Assembly: GCA_016873095.1 (NCBI GenBank)
Contig: VGYC01000047.1
Location: forward strand, 1-42,878
Length of the DNA stretch: 42,878 bases
Direction of reading: 5' to 3'
Origin: Planctomycetota bacterium
GTDB lineage: Bacteria; Planctomycetota; Planctomycetia; Gemmatales; Gemmataceae
In this document: positions 10,855-42,639 of the stretch, piece by piece
Layout of the letters: each line of letters opens with the position of its first letter
How positions within the stretch are numbered: the first letter of the stretch is position 1
Translations under genes and position numbers: made by a program
Notes under the pieces: generated by a model
Databases searched by the model: none
Seen by the model: only the letters and a program-made list of their open reading frames with translations
What the model was told of the DNA's origin: nothing

Positions 10855-12045
10855 ATGTACTCGCAGCACCTCCTCTCCCGTGCCTTGTTCCTTGGCTGTT
10901 GTCTGTGCGTGGTGGCCGTGCAGGCGCCGGCGCAAGACCCAAGAGGTGAGATCCAGGTCAAGATCGAGGACGAGAAGGTGGTCGCCGCGCCCGATGCCGT
11001 CGCCGAGATCGATCCGCAGCAATATGCACGCATCCAGGGCGTTGGCAACATGTTTGTCAACGTCAATGTCAACAACCAGAACATCCACCTCGGCTACATT
11101 CAGACGATGTTCCACCTCGACGGTCAGGTCGTCTTCCCCGGCAACCCACCCGGCCGCATGGTGGCGCAGAATCAGCCATTGCGGCCCGGCAAGGGCAAGA
11201 AGCCACGCACCGGTTTCATGTCGATCTACGAGGTCGGCAAGATGACCATCACGCAGGAGATGGAGATCGTCCCCACACGGGCCAAGCCGGGGCAAAAACG
11301 CAGGCTCGACGCCGTCATGGTCCGCTACTTCATCGACAACAAGGACGAGCGGCCGCACACTGTCGGCACACGCGTCTTCATGAACCCGTTCGTCATGAAC
11401 AATCGCGGCACGCTCTTCGCCGCCCCCAACCAGCCCAACAAGGTCCTCAACGGCGTCGAACTCAAGGGCAAGCAAGTCCCCAGCTACCTGCAACTGCTGC
11501 AACGCCCGGACCTCAAGAACCCCGGCTACATCGCGCATCTCACCTATAACTTCGGCAGTTCGTTCGTCATGCCCGACCGCGTCGTCATGACCGGGCAGGC
11601 GGCGTTCATCAACCAGTGGGACCTGCGCGTCATGCAGTCCAACGGCATCTCCGCGCTGGGCTTCTACTGGGATCCCAAGGAGATCAAGGCCGGCGGCAAG
11701 CGGCAGTTCGCCTATGCCTTCGGCGAGGGCATCGCACCCAGTCCGGAAGGTGACGGCCTGGTGTCGCTGGTCCTGGGCGGCTCCTTCGAACCGGGCAAGG
11801 TATTCACCGTGGCTGCCTACGTGCAGGATCCCGCGCCGGGGCAGAGCCTCACGCTGGAGTTGCCGCCCGGCATGCAGCGCGTCGAGGGCAAGGTCCGCCA
11901 GCCCGTGCCGCTCGCCGACGACGACGGCAACTGCCTGGTCCTGTGGAAGGCCCGCGTCCTCGATGCCGGCCGCCACTCCCTCCGCGTCCGCTCCAGCACC
12001 GGCATCAGCCACACCAAGATCATCACCATCCGCCGGGGGACGTGA
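10855..12045 (+). CDS. secreted protein of an unnamed family shared with the C-terminus of the 21618-24401 protein
   Basis: 396 residues. The ATG at 10855 has AGGAA seven bases upstream. A signal peptide (LFLGCCLCVVAVQAPAQ) is followed by a ~360-residue all-beta-looking region. I do not recognise a named domain. It is, however, related to the part of the 21618-24401 protein beyond its membrane segment. Compare VSLVLGGSFEPGKVFTVAAY with VGLSVGGSFAPGGELTVVAL, and GFYWDPKEIKAGGKRQFAYA with VMYWDEKDMKPGARRTLGFT. Both also have a 'VMVRYFIDN..ERPHTVGTRV' / 'CLVRYQIENTDRMSHRVGVR' segment and end in an Ig-like strand set. It is presumably periplasmic. It is divergent from the metallophosphoesterase gene. 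Confidence 0.85.
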   Translation: MYSQHLLSRALFLGCCLCVVAVQAPAQDPRGEIQVKIEDEKVVAAPDAVAEIDPQQYARIQGVGNMFVNVNVNNQNIHLGYIQTMFHLDGQVVFPGNPPGRMVAQNQPLRPGKGKKPRTGFMSIYEVGKMTITQEMEIVPTRAKPGQKRRLDAVMVRYFIDNKDERPHTVGTRVFMNPFVMNNRGTLFAAPNQPNKVLNGVELKGKQVPSYLQLLQRPDLKNPGYIAHLTYNFGSSFVMPDRVVMTGQAAFINQWDLRVMQSNGISALGFYWDPKEIKAGGKRQFAYAFGEGIAPSPEGDGLVSLVLGGSFEPGKVFTVAAYVQDPAPGQSLTLELPPGMQRVEGKVRQPVPLADDDGNCLVLWKARVLDAGRHSLRVRSSTGISHTKIITIRRGT

Positions 12046-17041: not shown

Positions 17042-18961
17042 ATGCCGGCTCTCTTTTGTCCCAGATGCCAGCGTGCCAATCCCGACGTGGCGGTGTTCTG
17101 CTACTTCGATGGTGCGGAGTTGCGGCATGTAGCCGGGGCCGGGCCGGCGTTGCAAGGACGAATGGCCCGCGAGTTCATCTTTCCCTCCGGGCGGCGCTGC
17201 GCTACCTTCGACGACCTGGCGCAGGGCTGTCAGGATGAGTGGGATGCCGCGCGCCAGCTGCTGCGGCAGGGGACCTTCACGCAGTTCTTCACGCAGAACG
17301 GCCGAGCCGACCTTGTCAAGGCGGTGCAGGAGGCGCAGGCACAAGAAGACGCGGACATCGCCTTGATCCGCTTCGTCAATGCTCTGCCGGTGTCGCGGCC
17401 GCAGGCGCCGCGCCTCGATATCAATCCGCGCCGCTTCTTGCTGGGCAATCTGCTTGCCGGCGAGAACCGGCAACTGCACATCCTGCTGACCAACCAGGGG
17501 CAGGGCCAGTTGCAGGGAACGCTGAAAGTCACCGAAGGCGGCCAGTGGCTCAAGATCGACGGCGCGCGAGACGGCCAGTGCCCGCTGCGCATCGCTCGCG
17601 ACCAGAAACTGTTGCTGCAAGTCGATACGCGCGGCATGGCTGCGGCGCAAACATATGGCGGCAAGCTGACCGTCATTACCAGCGGCGGCGTGGTCGAGGT
17701 GCCGGTGCGCATGGACCTGGTCGCTCAGCCGTTTCCGCGTGCTCCGTTTCAGGGGGCCAGGACGCCGCGCGACATGGCCGAGCGCATGCGCTCTCAGCCA
17801 AAGGCCGCCGTCCCCCTGCTGGAGAACGGCGAAATCGCCCGCTGGTTCGCGGGCAACGGCTGGAATTTTCCGGTGCGCGGCCCGCTGGCCCGCGGCGTCG
17901 CCGGCATTCAGCAGTTCTTTGAGGCCATGGGTCTGTCCAAGCCGCCCCACGTCCAAATCAATCAGCCGGAGGTCCGTTTTGCCTGTACGTATCCCGAGAC
18001 GTTGCGTTTTCAGCTGAACCTGCACACGTCGTCGCGGAAGTGGGTTTATGCCAGCGTGGAGAGCGACAGCCCGTGGCTCAAGGTGCTGACGCCACAGGTG
18101 AGCGGGCCGCAGCAAGCCGCCGTCGGTCTGGAGGTGGATTCGCGGCATATGTCCGGGCAACTCGCTCAGGGACAGATCAAGATCGTCGCCAACGCCGGAC
18201 AGACTCTGAGCGTACGCGTAGCTGGAGAATTACGCGGGGCGCCCGCGGTCAGGACAAGCGCTTTCCTGCGGGCGATCGTTGTCATGGTGCTGGGCGCGAT
18301 TTTCTTGCGGGTTGCCCTGATTCCGTTGGTGGACCTGCGGGCACGTGCCACGGCTGCGCGCGCGGCGGCGACACGCCTGCTCGGCGGCAAACTCGGCAAT
18401 GATAGTCCGCTCTATCAGGTTGGCGGCTGGCTGACGCTTCCCTGGGGCAAGATCTGGACAGCCAGCACACCGGAACTGGCCGCGGGGCATTTCAAGACGG
18501 AGCAAGCCAAGGATGCCAAAGCGGGCAGGACCAGCGAATTTCGGCACTACTATCTGAAGGCTTTTGTGCGTCGCATGATCATCGGCATGTCCTGGCTGAG
18601 CGCTCTGGTGATGATCGTGGCAATTTGGCGGCGTCGCGAGAGCTTCGGCGATCTTGTCTGGGGTCTGATCGCCGGGACCAGCCTTGGCATCGTGGTCAGC
18701 GCCACGCTGGCCTGCGTCGTGATGAGCGCAGAGATTCCGTTGCAAGCGATCTGGGGCGGCGGCGCCGGCCTGCCGGGGTTGCTCTTGTGGATCGTGGTCG
18801 CAGTCCTCTACTGGGCAAGCATGGGCGCGATGGCGGGGCTGATCTTCGGCTGGTTGCCTGTCACGCGGCGCACCGTGATCGAGCCGGTGAAAAAGATTCT
18901 GGCAGGAATTTGCCGGTTATGCAGGCTGAAAGGGCTGGCTGCCTACTGTGCCGGTCCGTGA
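17042..18961 (+). CDS. zinc-ribbon / beta-sandwich / multi-span membrane protein (paralog of 21618-24401)
   Basis: 639 residues. Residues 6-24 are a zinc ribbon of unusual form, CPRC then CYFDG, with Asp where a fourth Cys would be. An FPSGRRCATFDDLAQGCQDE block with a helical segment (~45-120) follows. Next come two immunoglobulin-like beta domains (~125-235 and ~300-400) separated by a ~60-residue module with the phrase RWFAGNGWNFPVRGPLARG. The C-terminal third has about four membrane spans (near 404-428, 510-530, 540-565 and 575-605). The 21618 protein shares this order up to the second beta domain. No enzyme motif is seen. It is probably an inner-membrane scaffold with a cytoplasmic N-terminus. 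Confidence 0.85.
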   Translation: MPALFCPRCQRANPDVAVFCYFDGAELRHVAGAGPALQGRMAREFIFPSGRRCATFDDLAQGCQDEWDAARQLLRQGTFTQFFTQNGRADLVKAVQEAQAQEDADIALIRFVNALPVSRPQAPRLDINPRRFLLGNLLAGENRQLHILLTNQGQGQLQGTLKVTEGGQWLKIDGARDGQCPLRIARDQKLLLQVDTRGMAAAQTYGGKLTVITSGGVVEVPVRMDLVAQPFPRAPFQGARTPRDMAERMRSQPKAAVPLLENGEIARWFAGNGWNFPVRGPLARGVAGIQQFFEAMGLSKPPHVQINQPEVRFACTYPETLRFQLNLHTSSRKWVYASVESDSPWLKVLTPQVSGPQQAAVGLEVDSRHMSGQLAQGQIKIVANAGQTLSVRVAGELRGAPAVRTSAFLRAIVVMVLGAIFLRVALIPLVDLRARATAARAAATRLLGGKLGNDSPLYQVGGWLTLPWGKIWTASTPELAAGHFKTEQAKDAKAGRTSEFRHYYLKAFVRRMIIGMSWLSALVMIVAIWRRRESFGDLVWGLIAGTSLGIVVSATLACVVMSAEIPLQAIWGGGAGLPGLLLWIVVAVLYWASMGAMAGLIFGWLPVTRRTVIEPVKKILAGICRLCRLKGLAAYCAGP

Positions 18962-19408
18962 GCCGCAATAATGACTGGCTCTTTGGATTTGTTCTGCGAC
19001 AATGGAGCCCTCTCGCGCAATCAGTACGGTGGGCGCGACAGCACCCATTCGTGGCTTTGGCGCGGTTAGAGTCCGACCTGGAGGCGGCAAACTGAAGGCG
19101 GCAAACTGCATCGGAAACGCTGACGTTTCGGGAAATTCCTGGCGTCCCTGGCTTGCGGATAGAACTGCGGTATGCTAAAAACGACTTGGGTGGTCAGTGT
19201 GCCTATCTCAGGATGAGATTCCGGAACCATCCTATTTCCTGTCACGAAGACGGTTTCCAGCACGCCAGAGTGAGAAGTTGGCCCGGCGCGACGTCAATCG
19301 CGCTGGCTGTGCTGGCGCGAGTAGCCGCCGCAAGCTTGCGCCATGGCACCAGTATTCAAGCGACTTTGCGAGACCGGTTTTCCATAAAGCAATAGAGGTT
19401 CAGCGAGC
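18962..19408. other. 447-base intergenic region upstream of the vWA gene
   Basis: No protein-like frame is seen on either strand. It holds a tandem pair of AGGCGGCAAACTG (19082-19094 and 19096-19108) and a stretch richer in A/T from about 19110 to 19250, including TATGCT at 19171. It presumably carries the promoter of the vWA gene, but no -35/-10 pair with proper spacing stands out. Confidence 0.4.
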
Positions 19409-20689
19409 ATGGCGAAGATCCACATCGAGCGCATGATGCACCGCAACAGTCTTGCGGTGGCAGGTGAATCGGCGGCCAGTTATGCCTTGATCAAGCTTAT
19501 TCCCAGCGGGCTTGGACAGGCAGCCAAGCCGATGGGCCTGAACCTTGCCCTGGTTCTCGACGTCAGCGGCTCCATGTACGAAGAAGACGGCACCGGCATC
19601 AGCCGCCTCAAGCGCATCCAGGACGCCGCCGTCGCCGCCATCAACAAACTCAAGCCGGACGATAGCCTGGCGATCATCGCCTTTGCCCACAACGCGTTGA
19701 CGCTGCTGCCCGCCACCAAGATCGCCGAGAAGGACAAGATTGAAGATGTGATCCGCCGAATCGACATGTTCGATGTTGATCCGGGTGGAACCGCGATGAA
19801 CGACGGCATCCGACTGGGCATGGAGGAGGTGGCCAAGGGCGCGGGCGCCGGTCGGCTCTCTCAGGTCGTGGTCCTCACTGACGGCGAGACGTCCGGCGAG
19901 CAGGATTGCCGCACCCTGGCCCAGCAGGCCGCCCAGCAGAAGATCCACTTGACGTTGATGGGCGTCGGCATTGACTGGAAGGCCAGTCTCATCAAGGATC
20001 TCGCCAAGCTGAGCGAGGGCAAGTGGTATTACATCGACGTCAATCAGGCTGCCGAGGCCGAGCGCATCTTTGTCGAGGAATTCGAGAGCCTGGCAGCTTC
20101 CGCCTTCACCAACGTGCAGATGCACCTGCGGCCGATGAAGGACATCAAGCTCAAGCGTGTCCGCCAGGTCGTTCCGGAGATCAAGGAACTCAAGCTCGAC
20201 GAGCCGGAGGAGCGGCATCTCCTCGCCAGCCTGGGTACGCTCGAGAACGACAAGACCACGCGCTACGTGATCGATCTGAGCCTGCCCAAGCGTCCGGACG
20301 GCAAGTATGTGATCGCTCAGCTCGAGGTCACCTACGACGTCGGCACGGACAAGGAAACGACCGGCATGGTGCCGCTGGAAATGACCTACACCTCTGCGGG
20401 ACACGGATACATCAATGCCGAGGTGGCCCGCCACATCGACGAGGTGCAGATCTTCGAGCTGAACAACAATTTGCAAAAGGCCATCGCAACGGAGAACAAG
20501 GAAGAAGTGCAGCGCGTGGCCGAGGCCATCGAGAAGAAGGGCGAATTGATGGGACCGCGTGCCGCCAAGAAGACCATGCTCGCCCGCCAGGTCTTGCAAG
20601 AGCTGAACGTCGGCGGCCGTGTCTCCAAGAAGACCCAGCTGGCCATGGAAGACTCCGCCCGTCTGGCCGAGGAAATGCCCGCGCAGTGA
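19409..20689 (+). CDS. cytoplasmic von Willebrand factor A (vWA) domain protein
   Basis: 426 residues. The ATG at 19409 has AGAGG ten bases upstream. An N-terminal ~45-residue strand region leads into a vWA domain with a complete MIDAS metal site: DVSGSM at residues 51-56, the Thr in DPGGTAMNDG, and Asp in VVVLTDGETSG. After the vWA domain (~45-225) comes a beta-rich domain (~230-340, LKRVRQVVPEIKEL onward). A helical, charged C-terminus (~345-426) includes EIFELNNNLQ-type and VAEAIEKKGELMG helices. There is no signal peptide or membrane span. vWA proteins of this form usually act as metal-dependent protein-binding platforms. The FHA gene starts 94 bases downstream, suggesting joint work. Confidence 0.92.
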   Translation: MAKIHIERMMHRNSLAVAGESAASYALIKLIPSGLGQAAKPMGLNLALVLDVSGSMYEEDGTGISRLKRIQDAAVAAINKLKPDDSLAIIAFAHNALTLLPATKIAEKDKIEDVIRRIDMFDVDPGGTAMNDGIRLGMEEVAKGAGAGRLSQVVVLTDGETSGEQDCRTLAQQAAQQKIHLTLMGVGIDWKASLIKDLAKLSEGKWYYIDVNQAAEAERIFVEEFESLAASAFTNVQMHLRPMKDIKLKRVRQVVPEIKELKLDEPEERHLLASLGTLENDKTTRYVIDLSLPKRPDGKYVIAQLEVTYDVGTDKETTGMVPLEMTYTSAGHGYINAEVARHIDEVQIFELNNNLQKAIATENKEEVQRVAEAIEKKGELMGPRAAKKTMLARQVLQELNVGGRVSKKTQLAMEDSARLAEEMPAQ

Positions 20690-20783
20690 CGAGAAGCCGA
20701 ATCTCGAAATTCGGACACAGTTTGCGGATTCGTGAGTGTGGTGGAGTCACAAGCTAACAGAGAATCGCGTCTGGAGGTTTTAC

Positions 20784-21464
20784 ATGTTGAAATGTCCTTT
20801 CTGCAGCTTTGAGAATGAAGAAGGGGCGCTGTTTTGCGAACAGTGCAAGTCGGACCTGAGCGGAGTCGATCCGGTGCCGATGGCCACCCCCGACCCGGTG
20901 CCGATGGCGGCGGTGCTCGAGGAAACCGTGCCCATGGCCCAGGCCGTCCCCGCGGTCGCGGTTGAAGAAACGCCGCCGATGGCTGAGCCCGTCCCGGCGC
21001 CGGTCATGGCCGAATCGGCAACTGAGACGCCCATGGCAGCGGACATGGTCCAGACGCCGGCAGAAGAATCGCCTGCTCCCCCGGCGGCTCCCCCCGCAGC
21101 TCCTGCGGCGGACGCGTCCCCTCCCGCCAAGTTACCGGACGGCGCTCAGCCGAAACTGGTCGTCGTGCGCGGCCAGAAGATCGGCGTCGAGTTCCCAATC
21201 TATCCCGACCTGAACTTCATTGGCCGGGCTGATGAGAAGCCCGTCGATATCGACCTCGAAGACCAGGAGCCGCCTGATCGTGTCTGGTGCTCGCGCCAGC
21301 ATGCCCTCATCACCTTCGAAGAAGGCACGATCACCATCGAAGATCTGAACAGCGCCAATGGCACGTACGTCAACCGGACCCGTGTCTACCCCGGCCAGAA
21401 ACGGCCGCTGAACGTGGGCGATACCGTTCAGATCGGCAACGTGCAGATGAAGTTGAAAGTGTAA
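20784..21464 (+). CDS. zinc-ribbon FHA-domain protein
   Basis: 226 residues. The ATG at 20784 has GGAGG seven bases upstream. Residues 4-21 form a classical zinc ribbon (C4-C7, C18-C21: CPFC and CEQC). A ~100-residue low-complexity linker repeats the motif PVPMA/PPMAEPVP. The C-terminal FHA domain (~130-226) has intact phosphothreonine-binding landmarks: NFIGRADE, the WCSRQHA motif with Ser, Arg and His, and LNSANGTYVN. It should therefore bind pThr peptides. With a vWA protein just upstream and a kinase, PP2C and second FHA protein 14-20 kb downstream, it is a plausible phospho-reader. Soluble. Confidence 0.93.
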   Translation: MLKCPFCSFENEEGALFCEQCKSDLSGVDPVPMATPDPVPMAAVLEETVPMAQAVPAVAVEETPPMAEPVPAPVMAESATETPMAADMVQTPAEESPAPPAAPPAAPAADASPPAKLPDGAQPKLVVVRGQKIGVEFPIYPDLNFIGRADEKPVDIDLEDQEPPDRVWCSRQHALITFEEGTITIEDLNSANGTYVNRTRVYPGQKRPLNVGDTVQIGNVQMKLKV

Positions 21465-21486
21465 CGAAAAGAGCTTCGGGGATTCG

Positions 21487-21540
21487 CGAGCCCGCAGCGC
21501 CAGCAAGGCAGCGAGTCGCCTTGCTGGCGCTGCGGGCTCG
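21487..21540. repeat. perfect 23-base inverted repeat with 8-base loop
   Basis: Arms at 21487-21509 and 21518-21540 are exact reverse complements, each starting or ending with CGAGCCCGCAGCGCCAGCAA or its complement; the loop is AGCGAGTC. No T run follows on either strand, which argues against an intrinsic terminator. It lies between the FHA gene and the large zinc-ribbon gene. It is likely a REP/BIME-like or miniature mobile repeat. Confidence 0.85.
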
Positions 21541-21617
21541 ACTCGCGTTTGTTTCGGTTGCGTGCTCGCAAACCAAGACATTCGCAGTTCGGTGTTTCCT
21601 CCGGCAAGGATCGAGCC

Positions 21618-24401
21618 ATGACACAAGTGTGTGATAAGTGCTCGCGGGTCAACCCTGCCGATGCCGCTTATTGCTATTACGACGGGGCGATTCTCGCCGG
21701 GCACACGGCCAATGGCGGCCCCATCAATCAGGGTTCGGCTGCCTTTCCAAGTCAGTTCGTTTTCCCCTCCGGCCAGTCCTGTCGTAATTTTGATCAGCTG
21801 GCTCTGACGTGCCAGCAAAACTGGAAGGCTGCCGTGGATCTCCTCAAGCACGGCTTCCTGTCGAGCTTTCTGGGGGGGCTGGGCCGGGCCGATCTGGCCC
21901 TGGCAGCACAGGAGGCGGCACAGTTTCCCGATCAGGATCGCGGTCTCGATCAGTTTCTCTCGCGACTGCCCACGCACGTTCTGGACGCGCCAAAGCTCAA
22001 GGCTGAACCGTCGGAAGTCAACCTCGGCCAGGTGCCCATTGGCACGGACAGACATTTCGATCTGCACCTGATGAACCTGGGCATGCGTCTCGTTTACGGG
22101 TCGGTCGTATCGGATTGCAAGTGGCTCACCCTGGGCGAATCGCCCGGCAATGCTCAGAAGCTGTTTCAGTTTGGCAGCGAGATGGCCATTCGGGTGCAGG
22201 TTCGTGGACAGCATTTGCGGGCCGGTACCAAGGCACTGGTCGGCAAGCTGGTGGTTGAGTCGAATGGTGGAACCGTGACGATCATGGTGCGTGCCGATGT
22301 GCCGGTGAAACCGTACATCGGCGGCGTGCTGGCTGGCTCGATCAGCCCGCGACAGATCGCCGAGAAGGCCAAGGCCAACCCCAAGGAGGCCGCCGCTCTT
22401 TTCGAGAACGGCTCGGTGGCCGAGTGGTTCACGCTCAACGGCTGGAAGTACCCAGTGCAAGGACCGTCCGCCTCGGGCCTTGGCGCGGTGCAGCAGTTCT
22501 TCGAGGCACTCGGTCTGGCCCGGGCGCCCAAGGTCGAGATCAGCACCAACGCCCTGGTGTTTCGAGGCAACGTCGGCGAATGCCTGCAGGCCACGTTCGA
22601 GGTCAAGACTCCGGAGAACAAGTACGTTTACGCGCATGCCACCTGTGAGCAGGCCTGGTTGCAGGTTGAGCGAGCGAAACTGAACGGCCGCAACGCCACC
22701 ATCACGGTCAAGGTCCCCAGCGTTCCAAATCGTCCGGGCGAGAGCTTGCAGGCTAATCTCAATGTGATGGGTAACGGCAACCAGCGCTTTGTCATACCTG
22801 TGTCACTGGCCATCGGCGGTACGCCAGGTGCCGGCCCGTTCGCGACAAGTCCGTTTGCAACCAGTCCATTTGCGACGAGTCCGATCGCGCCAGGCCCATC
22901 GGCGGCGAACCCGTTCGCGGACATGTCGGACATCGAGCCGATTCCGGTGGCGACGGTCAGCGATCCGGATGTGAATCTGCCGCCGTTGCCTGCCGCGGCG
23001 TTCACCGCTGCGTCCCAGGCGCCGCCCGGAGCGGCGCAGTCGCCAGTTGCCCAGGCTCCCGGCGCGCCGTTCATGGTGCCGCCACCATTGCCCGCGGACT
23101 TTACGTCCGCACAGCCGTCGCGACATGCGCGGCAAGGCAAGCCAATGTGGCTTCACCTGATTCCGCTTGCTGTTTTGGCCGTGGCCCTGGTCATCATCAT
23201 GCTCCGCGACCGCCTCGCCTCCGCGCCAGCCGGCGGCGAGGAACTACGCATCGGTGTCTACTTCGATTACAGTGAGAATCCCAAGGACAGGAAGAGCATC
23301 GGGCAATCCATGCGCTTCGGTCTGGTGAAGATCGATGATGTGAACGATCCCAACACGTTCAAGAAGCTGACTTTCGATTCGCGCGGCACGACCAATTCCA
23401 CGCTTTTCAAGATCGACGGCATCCCGCGGTTTTTTGGTTTTCGCGACGGCATGTGGGAGAGCAAGCCAAGGATCATTCCTGCCGACAGGCCCGGCGGTTT
23501 TCCGCGCGGCATGACCGGCGCCTGGATGTTCCTTGGCAAGATTCAGGCGACGCAGACTGTCACCACGATCCCCGGCGAGCCGGTTGAGGTTGCGCCTGGT
23601 GTGTACAAGAGATTCCTCGACACGTGCCTGGTCCGCTACCAGATCGAGAACACCGACAGGATGTCGCACCGCGTCGGCGTGCGCTTCCTGCTCGACACCA
23701 TGATTGGCGATAACGACGGACCGTCGTTCATTGTTCCGGGCCGGCCCGACCTCGTCACCACCAAACTCGACGTCGCCCCGCCGGAGCGAGTACCGGACTT
23801 CGTGCGGGCACTGGAGGTCGCAAACGTAAGCAAGCCGGGCACGGTGGCCCAGATCAACTTCCGCCTGAGCGACGCGATCGAGCCTCCCAGCCGTGTTTCC
23901 CTGACTCACTGGCACAAGGAGCCTCTGGAATACAACATTCCGATCACCAATATCGAAAAGGTCAAAGACGGGGAACCTTACCGCGACTCGGCCGTCGTCA
24001 TGTACTGGGATGAAAAGGACATGAAGCCCGGCGCCAGGCGAACGCTCGGGTTCACCGTCGGCCTCGGCGGCCAGTCGGTTCAGGAGGGCGTCGTTGGCCT
24101 GTCGGTGGGCGGCTCATTTGCCCCTGGAGGTGAACTGACAGTGGTCGCGCTGGTCGGCGATCAGCAGCCCAAACAGACAATCACGCTCGAACTGCCCAAG
24201 GAGTTCACGTTCGTGGACAAGTCTGCGGCCACGCAAGAGGTGCCAGCCGGCCAGAAGATGGCCGACGGCCGCATCCGCCCCAGTCCCGTGACCTGGCGCA
24301 TTCGCTCCACCGTGGCCGGCACGTTCGACCTGCAAGCCCGCACCAGCGCTGGCGGCCGGCAACGTCAGAAAGTGAACATCAAGACCGGCGCGATTTTCTA
24401 G
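21618..24401 (+). CDS. zinc-ribbon / beta-sandwich / single-span protein with extracytoplasmic shared domain
   Basis: 927 residues. The ATG at 21618 has AAGGA seven bases upstream. The first part repeats the plan of the 17042 protein: variant zinc ribbon (CDKC then CYYDG), FPSGQSCRNFDQLALTCQQN, helical block, Ig-like domain, the EWFTLNGWKYPVQGPSASG module, and a second Ig-like domain (to ~410). A Pro/Ala/Ser-rich linker with NPFA/SPFAT repeats follows, then one membrane span (~510-530, LIPLAVLAVALVIIML). The remaining ~395 residues match the secreted protein at 10855-12045. The predicted topology is ribbon and Ig domains in the cytoplasm, shared domain outside. No enzymatic motif is seen. Confidence 0.88.
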   Translation: MTQVCDKCSRVNPADAAYCYYDGAILAGHTANGGPINQGSAAFPSQFVFPSGQSCRNFDQLALTCQQNWKAAVDLLKHGFLSSFLGGLGRADLALAAQEAAQFPDQDRGLDQFLSRLPTHVLDAPKLKAEPSEVNLGQVPIGTDRHFDLHLMNLGMRLVYGSVVSDCKWLTLGESPGNAQKLFQFGSEMAIRVQVRGQHLRAGTKALVGKLVVESNGGTVTIMVRADVPVKPYIGGVLAGSISPRQIAEKAKANPKEAAALFENGSVAEWFTLNGWKYPVQGPSASGLGAVQQFFEALGLARAPKVEISTNALVFRGNVGECLQATFEVKTPENKYVYAHATCEQAWLQVERAKLNGRNATITVKVPSVPNRPGESLQANLNVMGNGNQRFVIPVSLAIGGTPGAGPFATSPFATSPFATSPIAPGPSAANPFADMSDIEPIPVATVSDPDVNLPPLPAAAFTAASQAPPGAAQSPVAQAPGAPFMVPPPLPADFTSAQPSRHARQGKPMWLHLIPLAVLAVALVIIMLRDRLASAPAGGEELRIGVYFDYSENPKDRKSIGQSMRFGLVKIDDVNDPNTFKKLTFDSRGTTNSTLFKIDGIPRFFGFRDGMWESKPRIIPADRPGGFPRGMTGAWMFLGKIQATQTVTTIPGEPVEVAPGVYKRFLDTCLVRYQIENTDRMSHRVGVRFLLDTMIGDNDGPSFIVPGRPDLVTTKLDVAPPERVPDFVRALEVANVSKPGTVAQINFRLSDAIEPPSRVSLTHWHKEPLEYNIPITNIEKVKDGEPYRDSAVVMYWDEKDMKPGARRTLGFTVGLGGQSVQEGVVGLSVGGSFAPGGELTVVALVGDQQPKQTITLELPKEFTFVDKSAATQEVPAGQKMADGRIRPSPVTWRIRSTVAGTFDLQARTSAGGRQRQKVNIKTGAIF

Positions 24402-35943: not shown

Positions 35944-38208
35944 TCAACTCGCCCTGACCACCACAATCGTGGCGTTATCCGTGGCGCCGCGGAGGTTGAC
36001 GAGGTTGAGGAGGCGGCGGGCGGCTTCCTCGGCGGAGCCGGCGGCTTCGCGGCTGAGCATTTTTTCCAGGTCGGCGGACGGGATGTGATTGGTCAGGCCG
36101 TCGGAGCAGACCAGCACCCAGTCGCCGCGCTTGAGCCGGCCCTGGTAGGTGCCGGGGACGACATCCGGCTGGCCGCCGATGGCTTGCTGTAGCTCGTTGC
36201 GGCGCGGATGACTTTCGGCTTCTTCTTCGGTGAGCTGGCCCAGCTCGACGAGCCGGCTGACCAGGGTCTGATCGCGGGTGAGCTGGATGAGTCGGCCATT
36301 GTGAAGGTGATACGTGCGGCTATCGCCGACGTGGCCGACGACGATGTTCTGGTTGTCGATGTACACGGCCTCGGCGGTGCAGCCCATGCCGCGCCGGCCC
36401 CGGCCCGGAGCGCGCGAGGCAGTGTACACCTCGCGGTTGGCATGGCGCAGCCCGGCCTCCAGCAACTTCTTGCAGGCCTCGACATCGAAGGGAGCGGCGG
36501 CCGGCGTGTCCTTGCCGGCCAGCGCGGAGAACATCGGCTGTTGCACGAGGTTCTTCTTCAGCTCGGTCAGCGCCATGGCGGCGGCCACCTCGCCGGCCTC
36601 GTAGCCGCCCATGCCGTCGGCCAGCAGCACAATGGCGTATTCATAGATGTCGTCCTGACGGGCATCGACGGCGTGCAGCACGCTCAAGGCGTCTTCGTTG
36701 CCGGTGCGCACCATGCCGGTCGTCGTCCAGGCGGCGATGTCGAGCCGCACCTTGCTGAAGGTTCGCTGACATACCTCCAGAGTGTTGATCAGCTCCTGAA
36801 AGCCGGTGGGATCGGTGCGGCTAGCCTCGTCGGTCGGAAAGCGTGAATTGATGTCGCGCACGAATGTCTTGGAGATCAGCCGGAAAAAGAGCGGGTGCAC
36901 GTCTGGATAGCGCTCGGTGATCTGCAGAGGGGCGAATTGCCGTTCGAAATCCTTCTCCTCCAGCGCGTGGTGCAGATACTCGAGCGCATAGATCATGGCG
37001 CCGAAGCTGTAGAGGTCGGCCCGGGCATCGGCCGTCTGAGGCGCGAGGATGAGCTCCGGAGCGGTGTACAGTGTGGCCCGCACCGGCGCATTCTCCGGCA
37101 ACGGCAGGGGCAGCAGGTCCGACAGGTCGGCAATCAGCACCTGGTTGTCGCCGTCGCTGACGAGAATCATGTCCGGATTCAGGCCTTCCAGCACGGCGCC
37201 GGCCTGGTGCAGGGCATGCAGGGCTTCAGCGATGTGAATGAGCCAGCCATAGCGGGCGACGGCGTCGAATTCCGGGTCGTCCCATGCGTCCCACAAGATC
37301 CGGCCAGCACAGGAGGACGCGACGAGGTACTCGTTGTTGTTGTCGTTGAAATGATCGACAACGCGCGGCAGGGCGGGATGTTGCGCCCGCTCCAGCAGGT
37401 CCTTTTCCCAGGCAATGCCGGGGAAGCTGCCCGCGCTTGACACGATGCCGGCCACGGGAATGGCGTTGTCGAAGGTCGGCAAGAAGTCGTCGCCGGCCGG
37501 CTCGATCTCGGCGGCGGGAATCTCCGCGATCTCAGGGATGGCAGCTTCAAGCAGGACCACCGGCTGCGGCGTGCCCTCCCCGTGATCCAGGGCCCGGTAG
37601 CGGCTCACGCCTTGCTTCTCGCCGAGTTTCTCGACCAGTTCGTATCGATCCTTGATGCGCATGCTTGGCATGGTTGCCACCGGAGAGGAAGGGTTACTGG
37701 AAGTGACAGAACTGGCGGCGGCGACAGAAGCCAGGGCGGTCACCTTGCGTGCCGGCATGGCACTGCTGAACATCCAGCCGCAGTCGTCGCAATACGCTTG
37801 CTGACTCCTGCGCACGGCCTGGCAAATCGGGCAGATTTCAATCTCGGCGGCTGGCGGAGCTTCTTCCTTCTTGGGCTCTTCGGCCAGCACCTGAGCAGCT
37901 ACTGGGACCGCCAGGGGGGGCGCATCTGAGGCAGCTGGCTCGGTACCAAGCATCGGCGTCGCCACCGGTACGGCAAGAGGGGGCCGACCGCTCTCGGACG
38001 GGGCCACGGGAATCGCCAGAGGCGGCATGCTCGAATCATCAGCGATCTCCGGTGGCGGCGTTTCCGGTGCACCGGCGACGTCCCAGTCAGTTGCCGGCGC
38101 GGGATCGGCAGATTTCGTCGTGTCCTGACTCGCTTCTTCCTCGTGCACGCCGAACAGTCGAGCCCACAGCCCGCCCGGTTTCGATGGATTGGAATCCGAC
38201 GGATTCAT
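35944..38208 (-). CDS. zinc-ribbon / pseudokinase / PP2C phosphatase fusion
   Basis: 754 residues. The ATG at 38206-38208 has GGAG five bases upstream. A linker with three PPLAV/IPVA repeats (62-104) precedes a zinc ribbon (C126-C129, C140-C143). Residues ~184-480 form a kinase fold that has lost catalysis. HRDLKPDN is L340-E-G-L-N-P-D-M, DFG is D361-L-S, and no VAIK lysine is visible (PVVLLEA); APE and DLYSFG are kept. The PP2C domain (~490-754) looks active: R501..N504-E-D506, DGMGG at 531, GDSR at 628-631, SDGL at 702 and D744-N. It should dephosphorylate pSer/pThr, with the pseudokinase as regulatory or docking part. Confidence 0.93.
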   Translation of the reverse strand: MNPSDSNPSKPGGLWARLFGVHEEEASQDTTKSADPAPATDWDVAGAPETPPPEIADDSSMPPLAIPVAPSESGRPPLAVPVATPMLGTEPAASDAPPLAVPVAAQVLAEEPKKEEAPPAAEIEICPICQAVRRSQQAYCDDCGWMFSSAMPARKVTALASVAAASSVTSSNPSSPVATMPSMRIKDRYELVEKLGEKQGVSRYRALDHGEGTPQPVVLLEAAIPEIAEIPAAEIEPAGDDFLPTFDNAIPVAGIVSSAGSFPGIAWEKDLLERAQHPALPRVVDHFNDNNNEYLVASSCAGRILWDAWDDPEFDAVARYGWLIHIAEALHALHQAGAVLEGLNPDMILVSDGDNQVLIADLSDLLPLPLPENAPVRATLYTAPELILAPQTADARADLYSFGAMIYALEYLHHALEEKDFERQFAPLQITERYPDVHPLFFRLISKTFVRDINSRFPTDEASRTDPTGFQELINTLEVCQRTFSKVRLDIAAWTTTGMVRTGNEDALSVLHAVDARQDDIYEYAIVLLADGMGGYEAGEVAAAMALTELKKNLVQQPMFSALAGKDTPAAAPFDVEACKKLLEAGLRHANREVYTASRAPGRGRRGMGCTAEAVYIDNQNIVVGHVGDSRTYHLHNGRLIQLTRDQTLVSRLVELGQLTEEEAESHPRRNELQQAIGGQPDVVPGTYQGRLKRGDWVLVCSDGLTNHIPSADLEKMLSREAAGSAEEAARRLLNLVNLRGATDNATIVVVRAS

Positions 38209-38236
38209 GCTCTCTCCAGGATCCTGTGTTCCGTTG

Positions 38237-38267
38237 TCAGTGTTCCGAACTACAAACTGAACACTGA
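38237..38267. repeat. inverted repeat TCAGTGTTC / GAACACTGA
   Basis: Nine-base perfect arms (38237-38245 and 38259-38267) with a 13-base loop lie in the 69-base gap between the kinase and the pseudokinase-PP2C gene. The core matches the repeat at 7897-7930. It has no T tract. Confidence 0.65.
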
Positions 38268-38277
38268 AACTGAACCC

Positions 38278-39735
38278 TTAACGCAGACGGTTGCCGCAGT
38301 GGATGCAGCAGCGGCTGCCCATGCGATTGAACTTGCCGCACATGTTGCACGGCGCGGTCGGGTCTGTCAATGGTTCGGCGCATTTCGAGCAGTACGGCGT
38401 GCGCACCTTGTTGCCCGTCCGGCACTTGGGACAGGCGACCTCCTTGGTGACGCGTTGCTTCTCGAGGTCGTGCTTGAATTCCTTGGCAGAGAAATAGCGG
38501 TCGTTGACGTCCTCGCTCAGGTTGATCTTGATCAGCTCGTAGAACCAGCGATAGGACGCAGGCAACGGTGAGTTCTGGTCCGCTAGCTGCCCTTCCAGTT
38601 CCTTGGCGGTGTAAAAGCCCTCAGGCGCCTTGCCGGTGGCGAGGTGATAGAGCGTGGCGGCCAGCGCGAACAGGTCACTGCGCGCCTCAGGTTTGCCCAC
38701 GATCTGCTCGGGCGGCGCATAGCCCTCGGTGTACACGCGCGTCTTGCCGGCCATGCGTTCCTGCACGGTGCGGCCCAGGTCGCGGGCCGTGCCGAAATCG
38801 ATCATCTTGATCGAACGCTGGTCCTCCAGCAGCATGATGTTGTCCGGCTTCAGGTCGCGGTGGATCAGCGGCGGCGATTGACTGTGCATCGTCATCAGCA
38901 CGTCGCAGATGGCCTTGCCCCAGTCCACCACGGAGCCGATGGGGAACGGCTTGTTGCCATTGGCCTCCATGAGGTCAAGCAGGTCCTTGCCGCGGATGAA
39001 CTCCATGACGAGGTGTGCAGTCTGGCCTTGCTGGATGAAGTCGTAGACGCGCGGGACGATGGAGACGGCCTCAAGGGTTCTGAGGATTTCCGCCTCGCGG
39101 CGGAAGAAGTTGAGGCGGATGGCGAACTCCTGCGGGTCGGCGCCGATCATGTCCTTGATGGCGACGGCGCGATTGCCATGCTTGGTGTCGCTGGCCATGT
39201 AAACCGCACCGAAGCCGCCCATCTTGAGGAGCTTGTCGAGGCGATAGCGACCATGCAGCAAGGTCCCGGCGGCCGTAGGCAAGGGGGAGCCGCAACGCTG
39301 GCAGTTGCGCTCGCCGGGAGGGTTGGCGACGCCGCAGGCGGCATTGGTGCACAGGTTGGGAGGGCCTTCCGGCTCGGCAGGTCCCGGCTCGGTTTGCAGC
39401 AGGTAGCCGCAATCCATGCAGGCGATGGCGCCTTCAAGGAGCTTGGAGCCGCAGGAGGGACAAACTGTCGGCAACGGGGGCGGCACAACCGCCCCGCCCA
39501 CCGCCGGCGGCCTGGCCCCATTGGGTGCCGGCGCCGCGGCACGTGCCGCCGGCAGCGGTGGGGCTGCGGCTGGCTTCGACACAGGCGCCGGAGCGGGAAC
39601 GGCCGCGCCCGCAGGCGCTAGCGCCGGAATGGTGAACGGCTGCTTGCACGACGGACAGCGGACGTTCTTGCCTCCGGCATTGTCGGGCACCTGCATCGAC
39701 TTGGTGCAATGGGGACAACGGATGATTTGCGGCAT
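38278..39735 (-). CDS. Ser/Thr protein kinase with five zinc ribbons
   Basis: 485 residues from the ATG at 39733-39735. Three zinc ribbons precede the kinase: C7-C10/C27-C30, C92-C95/C106-C109 and C129-C134/C145-C148. Two follow it: CPKC...CSKC and CNMC...CIHC near the C-terminus. The kinase domain (~164-430) is complete: glycine loop KMGGFGAVYMAS, K194 in VAIK, E214/E216 in the C helix, H292-R-D294 with LKPDN, D313-F-G and the APPEQ motif. It should be an active Hanks-type Ser/Thr kinase. There is no membrane span or PASTA domain, so it is soluble. It lies between the membrane FHA gene and the PP2C fusion gene, all on one strand. Confidence 0.95.
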   Translation of the reverse strand: MPQIIRCPHCTKSMQVPDNAGGKNVRCPSCKQPFTIPALAPAGAAVPAPAPVSKPAAAPPLPAARAAAPAPNGARPPAVGGAVVPPPLPTVCPSCGSKLLEGAIACMDCGYLLQTEPGPAEPEGPPNLCTNAACGVANPPGERNCQRCGSPLPTAAGTLLHGRYRLDKLLKMGGFGAVYMASDTKHGNRAVAIKDMIGADPQEFAIRLNFFRREAEILRTLEAVSIVPRVYDFIQQGQTAHLVMEFIRGKDLLDLMEANGNKPFPIGSVVDWGKAICDVLMTMHSQSPPLIHRDLKPDNIMLLEDQRSIKMIDFGTARDLGRTVQERMAGKTRVYTEGYAPPEQIVGKPEARSDLFALAATLYHLATGKAPEGFYTAKELEGQLADQNSPLPASYRWFYELIKINLSEDVNDRYFSAKEFKHDLEKQRVTKEVACPKCRTGNKVRTPYCSKCAEPLTDPTAPCNMCGKFNRMGSRCCIHCGNRLR

Positions 39736-39899
39736 TTCTATGATTTCCCAGTTGGTTCACGTTGGGCGCGTTGACTGCCAGGGCGACGGCTTGATGCCGC
39801 CATACCTTGCGAGCCTCCCAATCATGCCCACGCCAAGAAGAGGGCATGGCACTTGATTCCCATCCTCCAACATTGCGCTTGGCTATGCCAACGTAACGC

Positions 39900-40814
39900 T
39901 CACGCAGTCTGTTTTCGTCTCTCGTTGAAGCGCAGCAGGCTCCTGCCGACTCGAATGAGATCACCCGTCTGAAGCGGCGCCCGGCCGAGAACACGCTGGT
40001 CGTTGACAAACGTTCCCGCCGGTGTGCTGGCGTCCTCGAGATAATAGCGATTCCCGTCGAGCAAGATGCTGGCGTGCAATTTTTCAATGGCGTTGTCGCC
40101 GAACAGGCCGATGTCGCAAGCCTCGGCCCGGCCTATGGTCGTGCGTTCTTTGGCGAGAATCATCTCGCGGCCTGGACGAAAGCCAGCTTCCACCTTGATC
40201 CACGCCTCCTTCAAGATAACCTGGGCGAGGCCGACGAGAAGGCCGATGCACATGCCGACCATCACGAATCCAGTGGCGGTTGGGCTCCACAGCCATTCGT
40301 CGCTCCGATTGCTCTCGAGCAGGAATTTGAGCGAAAGGGCAAAAAGCCCGCCAACCAGTCCACCGGCGGTGCCTCCCAGAAGGCACTTGAGCATTTTTTT
40401 CTGAACCGCGCCAAAATCCTGGCGCTTGACAAAGGCAACGAGTAACTCAAAAGCCGCGATGGATATGCCGACAAGCAGGCCCGTGAAAACCCAGCCGACA
40501 ACGAACATCAGGCCGACCTCGGTAGCATTGAGCAGGGCTTGCCCGACCAGTCCGCCGATCAATCCGCCAGCCGCGCCGACCAGGATCGCGACACCGACGC
40601 GCTGTGCCACCAAGCCAATCCGGCGCAGCGACACGCTCCACACGGCGTCAACCAGCCCCAGGCCGAAAGCGATCATCATTCCCAGAAACATGCCGCGGAT
40701 ACCGGCGCGGGCCAGGTTGCCGTCGGGATGGATGAGACGGCCCAGCATCCACCCGACAAACCCTGCCCAACCGCCGCACAGAGCGCAGTAATAGACAAAC
40801 AGCCGAAACGACAC
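39900..40814 (-). CDS. membrane protein with cytoplasmic FHA domain
   Basis: 304 residues. I take the GTG at 40812-40814 as start because AGAGG lies six bases upstream; the alternative TTG at 40832 has none. About six membrane spans rich in glycine zippers fill residues 1-205 (AILVGAAGGLIGGLVGQALL, GGTAGGLVGGLFALS). The C-terminal FHA domain (~225-304) has TTIGRAEACD, the LEDAS..AGTFVN turn and a final GRSLLRFN strand. The usual SRxH binding motif reads EKLH, so the phosphopeptide-binding Ser is replaced. It may bind phosphothreonine weakly or recognise something else. First gene of the kinase/PP2C block. Confidence 0.88.
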   Translation of the reverse strand: MSFRLFVYYCALCGGWAGFVGWMLGRLIHPDGNLARAGIRGMFLGMMIAFGLGLVDAVWSVSLRRIGLVAQRVGVAILVGAAGGLIGGLVGQALLNATEVGLMFVVGWVFTGLLVGISIAAFELLVAFVKRQDFGAVQKKMLKCLLGGTAGGLVGGLFALSLKFLLESNRSDEWLWSPTATGFVMVGMCIGLLVGLAQVILKEAWIKVEAGFRPGREMILAKERTTIGRAEACDIGLFGDNAIEKLHASILLDGNRYYLEDASTPAGTFVNDQRVLGRAPLQTGDLIRVGRSLLRFNERRKQTA

Positions 40815-40937
40815 GCGCGACCTCTGAAGCAACCATCAACGCCGCAGAATTTGCCAGACAATACGGCAAAACGCAATACCTTAATTAAACGGGGCGTGAC
40901 TGGAGACTGTCCAGTCAATTCCCGATTTTTAGCGAAA

Positions 40938-40966
40938 TTGCCAAACGCCGCAATCCGTGGTAGACT
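40938..40966 (+). promoter_or_regulatory. sigma70-like promoter for the DUF2330 gene
   Basis: TTGCCA (40938-40943) and TAGACT (40961-40966) are separated by exactly 17 bases and lie 50 bases before the start at 41017. The -10 overlaps a small dyad GTAGAC-N8-GTCTAC (40960-40979). Confidence 0.5.
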
Positions 40967-41016
40967 GCGATTCGTCTACAGACGGGGGAATATTTCATTC
41001 GTCGAGGAGATTGAAC

Positions 41017-42639
41017 ATGGTATCGTGGAAAAAGAGCGGAGCGCTGGCCGGCCTGGCAGTGGCGGCGCTGTCGGTGATGGCGCTGGCGCCAGAACACGCC
41101 GACTCGATGTGTTGCTACTTTCGGCCGATCATCGTGGACGTGAAAAACCCGACGGAGATCCTGCAGCCTTCGCAGGTGGCGCTCATCACCTGGGACGCCG
41201 ACAAGCAAATCGAGACCGTGACAGTGCAGCCGCGCTTCGAGGGCAACGCCCGCGACTTCGGCATGGTCATCCCCACCCCCTCGCAACCCAAACTCGACGA
41301 GATGCCGCGCGACTTCTTCAAGGCGCTGGCCACGTTCACCACGGCGAAGAAGCGTGAATTCCCGCAGTCGCGCTTCTTCGGCTTCGGCGGCCCCGAGATG
41401 CTGATGAATCAGCGCGCCATGCCGGCCGCCGCGCCGGGCGGACTGGGCGGCGGCGCTCCCCCGCCACGGCCCACGACCGTTGAGGTCCTGGAGGTCGGCC
41501 TGGTCGGCAACCTCGATTACAAGATCATCAGCGCCGGTCGGCCCGACGATCTGTTCACCTGGCTGAAGGACAACAAGTATCAGTTCGCCGGCGACGAGGC
41601 CACGCTCGATCACTACGTCAAGCGCAAGTACTTCTTCACCGTGATGAAGATCGACACCCTGCAGATGAAGCGCAACGCCGACGGTAGCTACACCGGCGAC
41701 GTCACTCCCACACGCTTCACCTTCAAGAGCGACAAGCTCGTGTACCCGCTCAAGATCACGCAACCGTCGGTGAAGGACAAGACGTCCGCCCTCTTCTATG
41801 TCCTGTCGAAAACCAAGATGGACCTGACGGACGACCTCAGCTATCAGTTCAACTGGCTGTCGATGCTGAAGTTCGTTGAGAGCAACATGGGTGCTCATGA
41901 CATGACCAAGAGCAACCGCGACTTCCTGTCCTCGCTCAAGGGCAAGGAGCAGGACATCCTCAAGCGTGCCGGCGAACTGGGCTTCACGTTCCAGTTTGAC
42001 GGCGGCGACATGCCGTTCCGTCGGCCGTTCATCCGGCCGCAGCCAGTGGATCGCCCGAAAGTCCAGAAATCGGAGCGGTCGCCGACGACGCTCGAATGGG
42101 CCAAGAAGCTGACGGACGAGGATATCCAGATCGTCGCCGGTACCCGAGCCTTTTCCGAGACCGTGCCTGATCCGGATGATGGCTTCACTCAGGCCGATCT
42201 CCGCGATCCACGCATGCAGCAGGCCGTCTTCAAGGTCATTCAGCAGCGCATGGCCAAGTTCCAGAAGGACCGGCCGCGCGGCTACCTGGTGCGCAAGGCG
42301 TCGGCCGAGGACCTCAAGACCCTGCCTCTCTTGAAGGGCCACCTGCAACCCGGCATGTATCTGACCAAGTTCCAGCGTTCCTTCAACAAGAACGAGATGA
42401 ACGAGGACCTGGAGATGGTGGAGGCGAAGGTCGCCAACATCGCCGACACCTCGGAACATGAGGAAGTCCTTCGGGCCCAGATGTTCGGCGGCCGTGGCTT
42501 CCGCGGTCTTGATCTGCCTCCGGCTGGCGGCGGCCCCGGCGGTGTGGTCCCGCTGCCCGCCCCCGCCATCCCGCGTGCCCCGCAAGCGGTTCCAGACGCG
42601 GTTCCAGGCGCGGCACCGGGGGGCGCTCCGCAACGCTAG
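41017..42639 (+). CDS. secreted DUF2330 protein
   Basis: 540 residues. The ATG at 41017 has GAGGAG seven bases upstream. A signal peptide (residues 1-~30, GALAGLAVAALSVMAL) is followed by CCYF and the DUF2330 opening. There QVALITWDADKQIETVTVQP and EGNARDFGMVIPTPSQPKLD match the family pattern 'Y.G.A.DFSWILPVPS.P'. A Pro/Gly-rich segment (~115-140) interrupts it. The second half (~310-480) is helical and charged, and the tail (~505-540) is Pro/Gly/Ala-rich with PAPAIPRAP-type repeats. DUF2330 has no known biochemical role. It is predicted periplasmic or surface-exposed. It is monocistronic: its own promoter and terminator are visible. Confidence 0.9.
   Translation: MVSWKKSGALAGLAVAALSVMALAPEHADSMCCYFRPIIVDVKNPTEILQPSQVALITWDADKQIETVTVQPRFEGNARDFGMVIPTPSQPKLDEMPRDFFKALATFTTAKKREFPQSRFFGFGGPEMLMNQRAMPAAAPGGLGGGAPPPRPTTVEVLEVGLVGNLDYKIISAGRPDDLFTWLKDNKYQFAGDEATLDHYVKRKYFFTVMKIDTLQMKRNADGSYTGDVTPTRFTFKSDKLVYPLKITQPSVKDKTSALFYVLSKTKMDLTDDLSYQFNWLSMLKFVESNMGAHDMTKSNRDFLSSLKGKEQDILKRAGELGFTFQFDGGDMPFRRPFIRPQPVDRPKVQKSERSPTTLEWAKKLTDEDIQIVAGTRAFSETVPDPDDGFTQADLRDPRMQQAVFKVIQQRMAKFQKDRPRGYLVRKASAEDLKTLPLLKGHLQPGMYLTKFQRSFNKNEMNEDLEMVEAKVANIADTSEHEEVLRAQMFGGRGFRGLDLPPAGGGPGGVVPLPAPAIPRAPQAVPDAVPGAAPGGAPQR

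Follow-up and report, generated by a model that had tools for sequence, protein, structure and literature searches.

The window, i.e. the whole stretch of 42,878 nucleotides that was analysed, carries a gene set that, judging from its sequences, is probably a signalling system linking the cell surface to protein phosphorylation. Four plus-strand genes lie in a row, encoding a membrane protein (M1), a vWA protein, an FHA protein and a second membrane protein (M4), and each of them is an open frame with the coordinates given in Table 1, as the first-pass annotation had read them. Clustering of the neighbouring genes in relatives identified three further recurrent genes, encoding a polytopic membrane protein with an FHA domain (membrane-FHA), a zinc-ribbon kinase and a zinc-ribbon pseudokinase-PP2C protein. 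All three are present in the window, where they occupy 35944-40832 of the minus strand, some 11.5 kb away from M4. The four genes earlier taken for a whole assembly are there, but the set is larger than had been proposed. Based on sequence motifs, structural models and analogy with known systems, we consider it reasonably likely that the products form a membrane-linked Ser/Thr phosphorylation switch whose membrane subunits are sensor-like. A scan for promoters and terminators gave matches at or below chance.

Table 1. Position and domain content of the genes and regions of the proposed system in the window
Feature	Position	Strand	Description
Predicted secreted protein, homologue of the M4 extracytoplasmic region	10855-12045	+	Related part; membership in the system only putative
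M1	17042-18961	+	639 aa; variant zinc ribbon (C-C-C-D), two helix-Ig units, four membrane segments
ArnB-like vWA protein	19409-20689	+	426 aa; split beta-sandwich, vWA with intact MIDAS, C-terminal helices
ArnA-like FHA protein	20784-21464	+	226 aa; zinc ribbon (4 Cys) and FHA, pThr site intact
M4	21618-24401	+	927 aa; variant zinc ribbon, two helix-Ig units, low-confidence linker, one membrane segment, extracytoplasmic C-terminal region
M4 extracytoplasmic region, residues 542-927	23241-24398	+	Beta-supersandwich-like fold and small Ig-like domain (model)
Zinc ribbon, pseudokinase and PP2C phosphatase	35944-38208	-	PP2C active-site motifs intact
Zinc-ribbon Ser/Thr protein kinase	38278-39735	-	Catalytic motifs intact
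Polytopic membrane protein with C-terminal FHA domain (membrane-FHA)	39900-40832	-	pThr site degenerate; start codon uncertain

Conservation and genomic linkage

In a survey of the family covering 41 genomes from 33 genera, a vWA orthologue was found in 18 genomes and the N-terminal module of M1 and M4 in 20. The module is present in all 18 vWA genomes, and the vWA gene in none of the 21 genomes lacking the module (Fisher p=9e-10), a p-value that overstates independence since the surveyed genomes share ancestry. As had been expected of genes conserved together in related genomes, the FHA gene adjoins the vWA gene in 18/18 genomes, with an M4-like module gene next after the pair in 16/18. In the remaining two, the vWA and FHA genes are directly followed by the kinase gene, without an adjacent module protein, and one genome has the order FHA-M4-kinase-PP2C with no vWA detected, so the partners are not strictly obligate. 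A kinase orthologue (cut-off E<=1e-90) occurs in 17/18 vWA genomes versus 2/23 of the others (p=2e-8). Both the vWA and the kinase orthologues are well conserved, being single-copy in almost every genome carrying them. The vWA matches in two genomes, at G038:C123:13607-14878 and G024:C27:5723-6988 (L056, L057), appear to contain one internal stop codon each.

Several relatives have the genes in one same-strand cluster in the order membrane-FHA - M1 - vWA - FHA - M4 - membrane-FHA - kinase - PP2C. The gaps are mostly short, the same-strand order is kept in many genera, and the membrane-FHA gene adjoins the M4 and M1 genes. Another family of the order has a compact M1-vWA-FHA-kinase-PP2C arrangement. 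As in the window, the kinase and PP2C genes lie apart from the vWA gene in several relatives, where the separate trio usually stays together as membrane-FHA-kinase-PP2C. These arrangements support the view that the genes form a conserved unit.

Next, a scan of named genomes with one peptide pattern, which is not a census, returned 76 module loci, nearly all in planctomycete MAGs, many of them titled Gemmataceae or Gemmatales. A vWA gene lies within 10 kb at 29 of these loci (28 also with an FHA gene) and a membrane-FHA gene only at a further 19, so that a vWA, soluble FHA or membrane-FHA gene is nearby at 48/76. The others are either dispersed paralogues or lie on short contigs. The association of the module with vWA/FHA neighbourhoods put forward in the first-pass annotation is therefore strong when counted per vWA gene, but only weak when counted per module gene. 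As over half of the module genes found have no vWA gene close by, the genes might share their location by ancestry alone, the membrane proteins having no physical interaction with the vWA/FHA pair. We regard this as improbable given the same-strand order with short gaps across many genera and the domain fusions in other families described below. Outside the order, profile searches gave partial, fused forms of the module only and no vWA match near orthologue strength; by these searches, the zinc-ribbon helix-Ig membrane family seems essentially confined to one planctomycete order.

The membrane proteins M1 and M4

M1 and M4 share the same N-terminal plan before diverging into a four-span and a one-span form, as noted earlier for this locus. 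They are 35% identical over 403 N-terminal residues (E=1e-67) and diverge after about residue 403. Hydropathy indicates four membrane segments in M1 (402-434, 508-530, 538-568 and 569-603) and one in M4 (507-537). Their zinc ribbon is a C-C-C-D variant, in which C5, C8, C19 and D22 (M4 numbering) are invariant in 34 relatives. The WF..NGW module of the first-pass annotation is present, but it is not a separate module: the block and the second Ig-like domain are a tandem duplicate of the FPSG block and the first Ig-like domain (hhalign 98.1%, E=8e-14). The Ig parts alone give 98.2% (E=6e-14), and the helical parts alone give 27%, being too short to decide. The AlphaFold model of M4, in which short helices followed by an Ig-like sandwich occur twice, agrees with a tandem duplication of this helix-Ig unit.

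The first Ig-like domain is HYDIN/PapD-like, with a Pfam HYDIN match under the cut-off (E=0.003) and, for the structural model of M4, a Z of 12.6 against an axonemal protein. The second one matches DUF5717_N (PF18984) above the gathering score, with 29.7 and 30.1 bits for the whole M1 and M4 proteins against a cut-off of 25 and only about 95 of the 875 model positions matched. DUF5717_N was not detected in 14 control genomes, and a literature search on DUF5717 found no papers. A profile of the N-terminal module gave nothing significant against the PDB sequences (best E=0.05, an axonemal protein), and a search of a plasmid collection with M1 gave no match.

From their sequences, M1 and M4 are predicted to cross a single membrane, and there is no sign of an outer-membrane part, so the label of an envelope-spanning assembly, under which the locus had been described, is unsupported. 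An exported vWA protein, as part of an envelope or adhesion apparatus, was also considered, and rejected because the vWA and FHA proteins both lack a hydrophobic segment for export (no membrane segments by hydropathy).

The extracytoplasmic C-terminal region of M4, of about 385 residues, is homologous to the predicted secreted protein of Table 1 (29%, E=3e-35). The family of the latter is multi-copy, with seven matching places in the genome, M4 itself among them. In the model, the region has a beta-supersandwich-like fold (Z about 13-15 over 190-240 residues); these fold calls come from a second comparison, as Ig arrays of ciliary proteins, at very large rmsd, prevail in the Foldseek ranking of the whole M4. 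The matched entries are presumably galactose-mutarotase-like domains of the kind found in GH94 phosphorylases and some lyases. Since a shared fold does not show function, glycan sensing by this region of M4 is only a suggestion drawn from the model. A third module protein of the genome (G000:C39, locus L188 1530-4283) has a different C-terminal region of about 470 residues without a Pfam match, and the C-terminal regions of other module proteins gave just weak Pfam matches, all under the cut-off.

Elsewhere, the helix-Ig unit is found within larger proteins. In a third family of the class, a single protein combines an FHA domain, one helix-Ig unit and, at its C-terminus, hydrophobic segments. 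In another, more distant family (L205 4987-7014, minus strand), a protein kinase with motifs intact by eye is fused to one helix-Ig unit, after which another Ig-like stretch and weakly hydrophobic segments follow. Both fusions support the helix-Ig unit working together with FHA and kinase domains. The gene of the FHA fusion lies in a cluster (L164 4411-13894) with a membrane-FHA gene next to it and two Hsp70 genes, one of which is fused to a vWA domain.

Whether M1 and M4 would feed signals into the system or receive them can be weighed from these data. The vWA, FHA, kinase and PP2C proteins might be the functional unit, with M1 and M4 as its substrates or effectors, for example in transport or in the envelope, rather than its sensors. 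FHA readers usually bind phosphorylated targets, the four-span part of M1 and the varied C-termini of M4 could be outputs, and the two genomes with vWA-FHA-kinase have no module protein adjacent to it. However, the fusion of the helix-Ig unit to a motif-intact kinase fits a regulator at least as well, and the median identity of M4 is 57% in the cytoplasmic half versus 33% in the extracytoplasmic region, which varies faster, as expected of a varying sensor. We consider the substrate or effector role rather unlikely, though worth keeping in mind, and prefer sensor-like membrane subunits.

The vWA, FHA, kinase and phosphatase proteins

The active sites of the two inner proteins, read as intact in the first-pass annotation, are conserved throughout. 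In the vWA protein, the MIDAS residues D51, S53, S55, T128 and D158 are invariant in 18 orthologues. T389, S406 and T409 in the C-terminal helices are equally invariant and, going by sequence, are phosphosite candidates, nothing more. The AlphaFold model (pLDDT 81.9) confidently predicts a beta-sandwich split by the vWA domain, together with the C-terminal helices. Compared with ArnB (8s05_A), the model gives a Z of 24.3 over 353 residues (rmsd 5.1), with all three domains covered. An actinobacterial vWA protein (4fx5) fits better than ArnB, with a Z of 28.5 over 392 residues, and the architecture alone therefore does not imply an ArnAB mechanism. Among solved structures, 4fx5 and 8s05_A are the top full-length matches of the model. 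At the profile level, the vWA protein matches ArnB (8s05_A) and an ArnB paralogue (5a8j), besides other vWA proteins. ArnB_C (PF18677) matches weakly in 2/18 vWA orthologues (best E=9e-4), the protein of the window not being among them. The plasmid collection searched with the vWA protein yielded distant vWA proteins only, the best-covered being about 25% identical.

The soluble FHA protein has a zinc ribbon with C4, C7, C18 and C21, kept in 27/31 aligned sequences with a gap in 3, and an FHA domain (PF00498, E=5e-18) in which the pThr-binding residues Gly, Arg, Ser, Arg, His and Asn are intact in 31/31. Among solved structures, it is closest to those of ArnA, 5a8i (E=8e-9) and 8s05_C (E=1e-8), in an alignment that spans residues 3-219 and takes in the zinc ribbon. 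In sequence and predicted structure, the vWA/FHA pair resembles the archaeal ArnB-ArnA pair.

The kinase has its Lys, HRD, Asn and DFG in each orthologue covering these positions, and the checked PP2C motif residues are all present in 16/16 sequences. The kinase-like domain fused to the PP2C lacks both the HRD Asp and the DFG Asp in each of the 16 sequences compared and is possibly a regulatory pseudokinase. In membrane-FHA, the pThr-contacting Ser is replaced (by Glu in 22/27 sequences) and the Asn position is variable, so this conserved but degenerate FHA domain probably does not bind pThr as FHA domains usually do. A DUF2330 protein is encoded at 40957-42639 (plus strand), divergent from the membrane-FHA gene.

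That phosphorylation acts as the switch, as had been suggested for the four genes, receives strong indirect support from the intact kinase and PP2C in the operon of relatives and from the ArnB/ArnA likeness. The FHA and kinase fusions support a coupling of these domains. From these parts we infer a scheme of phosphosites, docking, sensing and signalling direction. The FHA protein would first be held loosely on the vWA protein through its zinc ribbon. The zinc-ribbon kinase would then phosphorylate the C-terminal helices of the vWA protein, with T389, S406 and T409 as candidate sites, after which the FHA domain could bind the vWA phospho-Thr, and the PP2C with its pseudokinase would reverse the phosphorylation. 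M1, M4 and membrane-FHA may hold the complex at the inner membrane via their cytoplasmic domains, the extracytoplasmic region of M4 being the likely signal input. A more elaborate and, in our opinion, doubtful version is a modular receptor machine with a separate sensor, an ArnB-like vWA scaffold, an FHA phospho-reader, a kinase and a phosphatase with pseudokinase. M1-like and M4-like membrane proteins would use their variant zinc ribbons to dock on the same surface of the vWA protein as the FHA ribbon, and dispersed receptors with different extracytoplasmic domains would share one switch.

Comparison with known systems

In Sulfolobus acidocaldarius, ArnA uses its zinc finger to hold unphosphorylated ArnB loosely; ArnC phosphorylates the C-terminal helices of ArnB, which leads to tight FHA binding, and PP2A reverses this (PMC12852372, PMC6509490, PMC7472852). 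The ArnA-ArnB phosphorylation switch is experimentally known (PMC6509490, PMC12852372). Like it, the planctomycete set pairs a zinc-ribbon FHA protein with a protein made of a split beta-sandwich, a vWA domain and C-terminal helices, and includes a kinase and a phosphatase, as ArnC and PP2A are in the archaeon. Unlike it, the set is bacterial, has a PP2C-pseudokinase fusion as its phosphatase instead of the archaeal PP2A, and includes two kinds of membrane partner. The output of ArnA-ArnB is archaellum expression, for which no counterpart was identified in the planctomycete set.

The core also overlaps in content with actinobacterial vWA-kinase-PP2C neighbourhoods, namely the third theme of the GAP1-N2 systems, in which genes for a zinc-ribbon kinase, a PP2C and a vWA protein are linked (PMC7159879). 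The planctomycete set differs from this theme by its FHA reader and helix-Ig membrane proteins. Because that theme has the same domain trio, with a lone vWA, a role in biological conflict or defence was considered, in the manner of the GTPase-centred GAP1-N2 systems, whose neighbourhoods include DO-GTPase and GAP1 genes. We judge it highly improbable: the window neighbour genes that were scanned belong to metabolic or transport families and none is a GTPase, PADLOC gives generic kinase matches only, and the vWA and kinase orthologues, conserved and nearly always single-copy, are unlike effectors that vary rapidly.

The same three protein classes, vWA, PP2C and kinase, make up the TerY-P triad. 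However, the planctomycete vWA protein scores below the cut-off of the TerF-like vWA model (23.5 versus 29.4 bits), and although a TerY-type vWA protein has a C-terminal zinc ribbon, no zinc-ribbon family is among the matches of the vWA protein and its 17 orthologues. By analogy only, the set is also similar to GlnH-GlnX-PknG-OdhI of corynebacteria, with a membrane protein, a Ser/Thr kinase and a downstream FHA protein, where GlnX is thought to pass an extracytoplasmic signal to the Ser/Thr kinase (PMC9769921).

Literature searches for kinase, FHA and vWA proteins in planctomycetes found the gene set in no title or abstract, subscription papers being mostly outside reach. Of the novelty suggested in the first-pass annotation, the part on the zinc-ribbon helix-Ig membrane family and the operon seems to stand, as both appear undescribed, whereas for the cytoplasmic core this type of switch is already known (ArnAB).

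Conclusion

Gemmataceae have about 100 Ser/Thr kinases per genome (PMC11032199). In this set, a single kinase of high conservation can be assigned a defined reader, a scaffold, a phosphatase and partners in the membrane. The analysis also defines a recurring helix-Ig unit, which elsewhere is fused directly to an FHA domain or a kinase. The gene set is a concrete proposal for a signalling pathway, one that would extend the principle of the ArnAB switch to a membrane system in bacteria.
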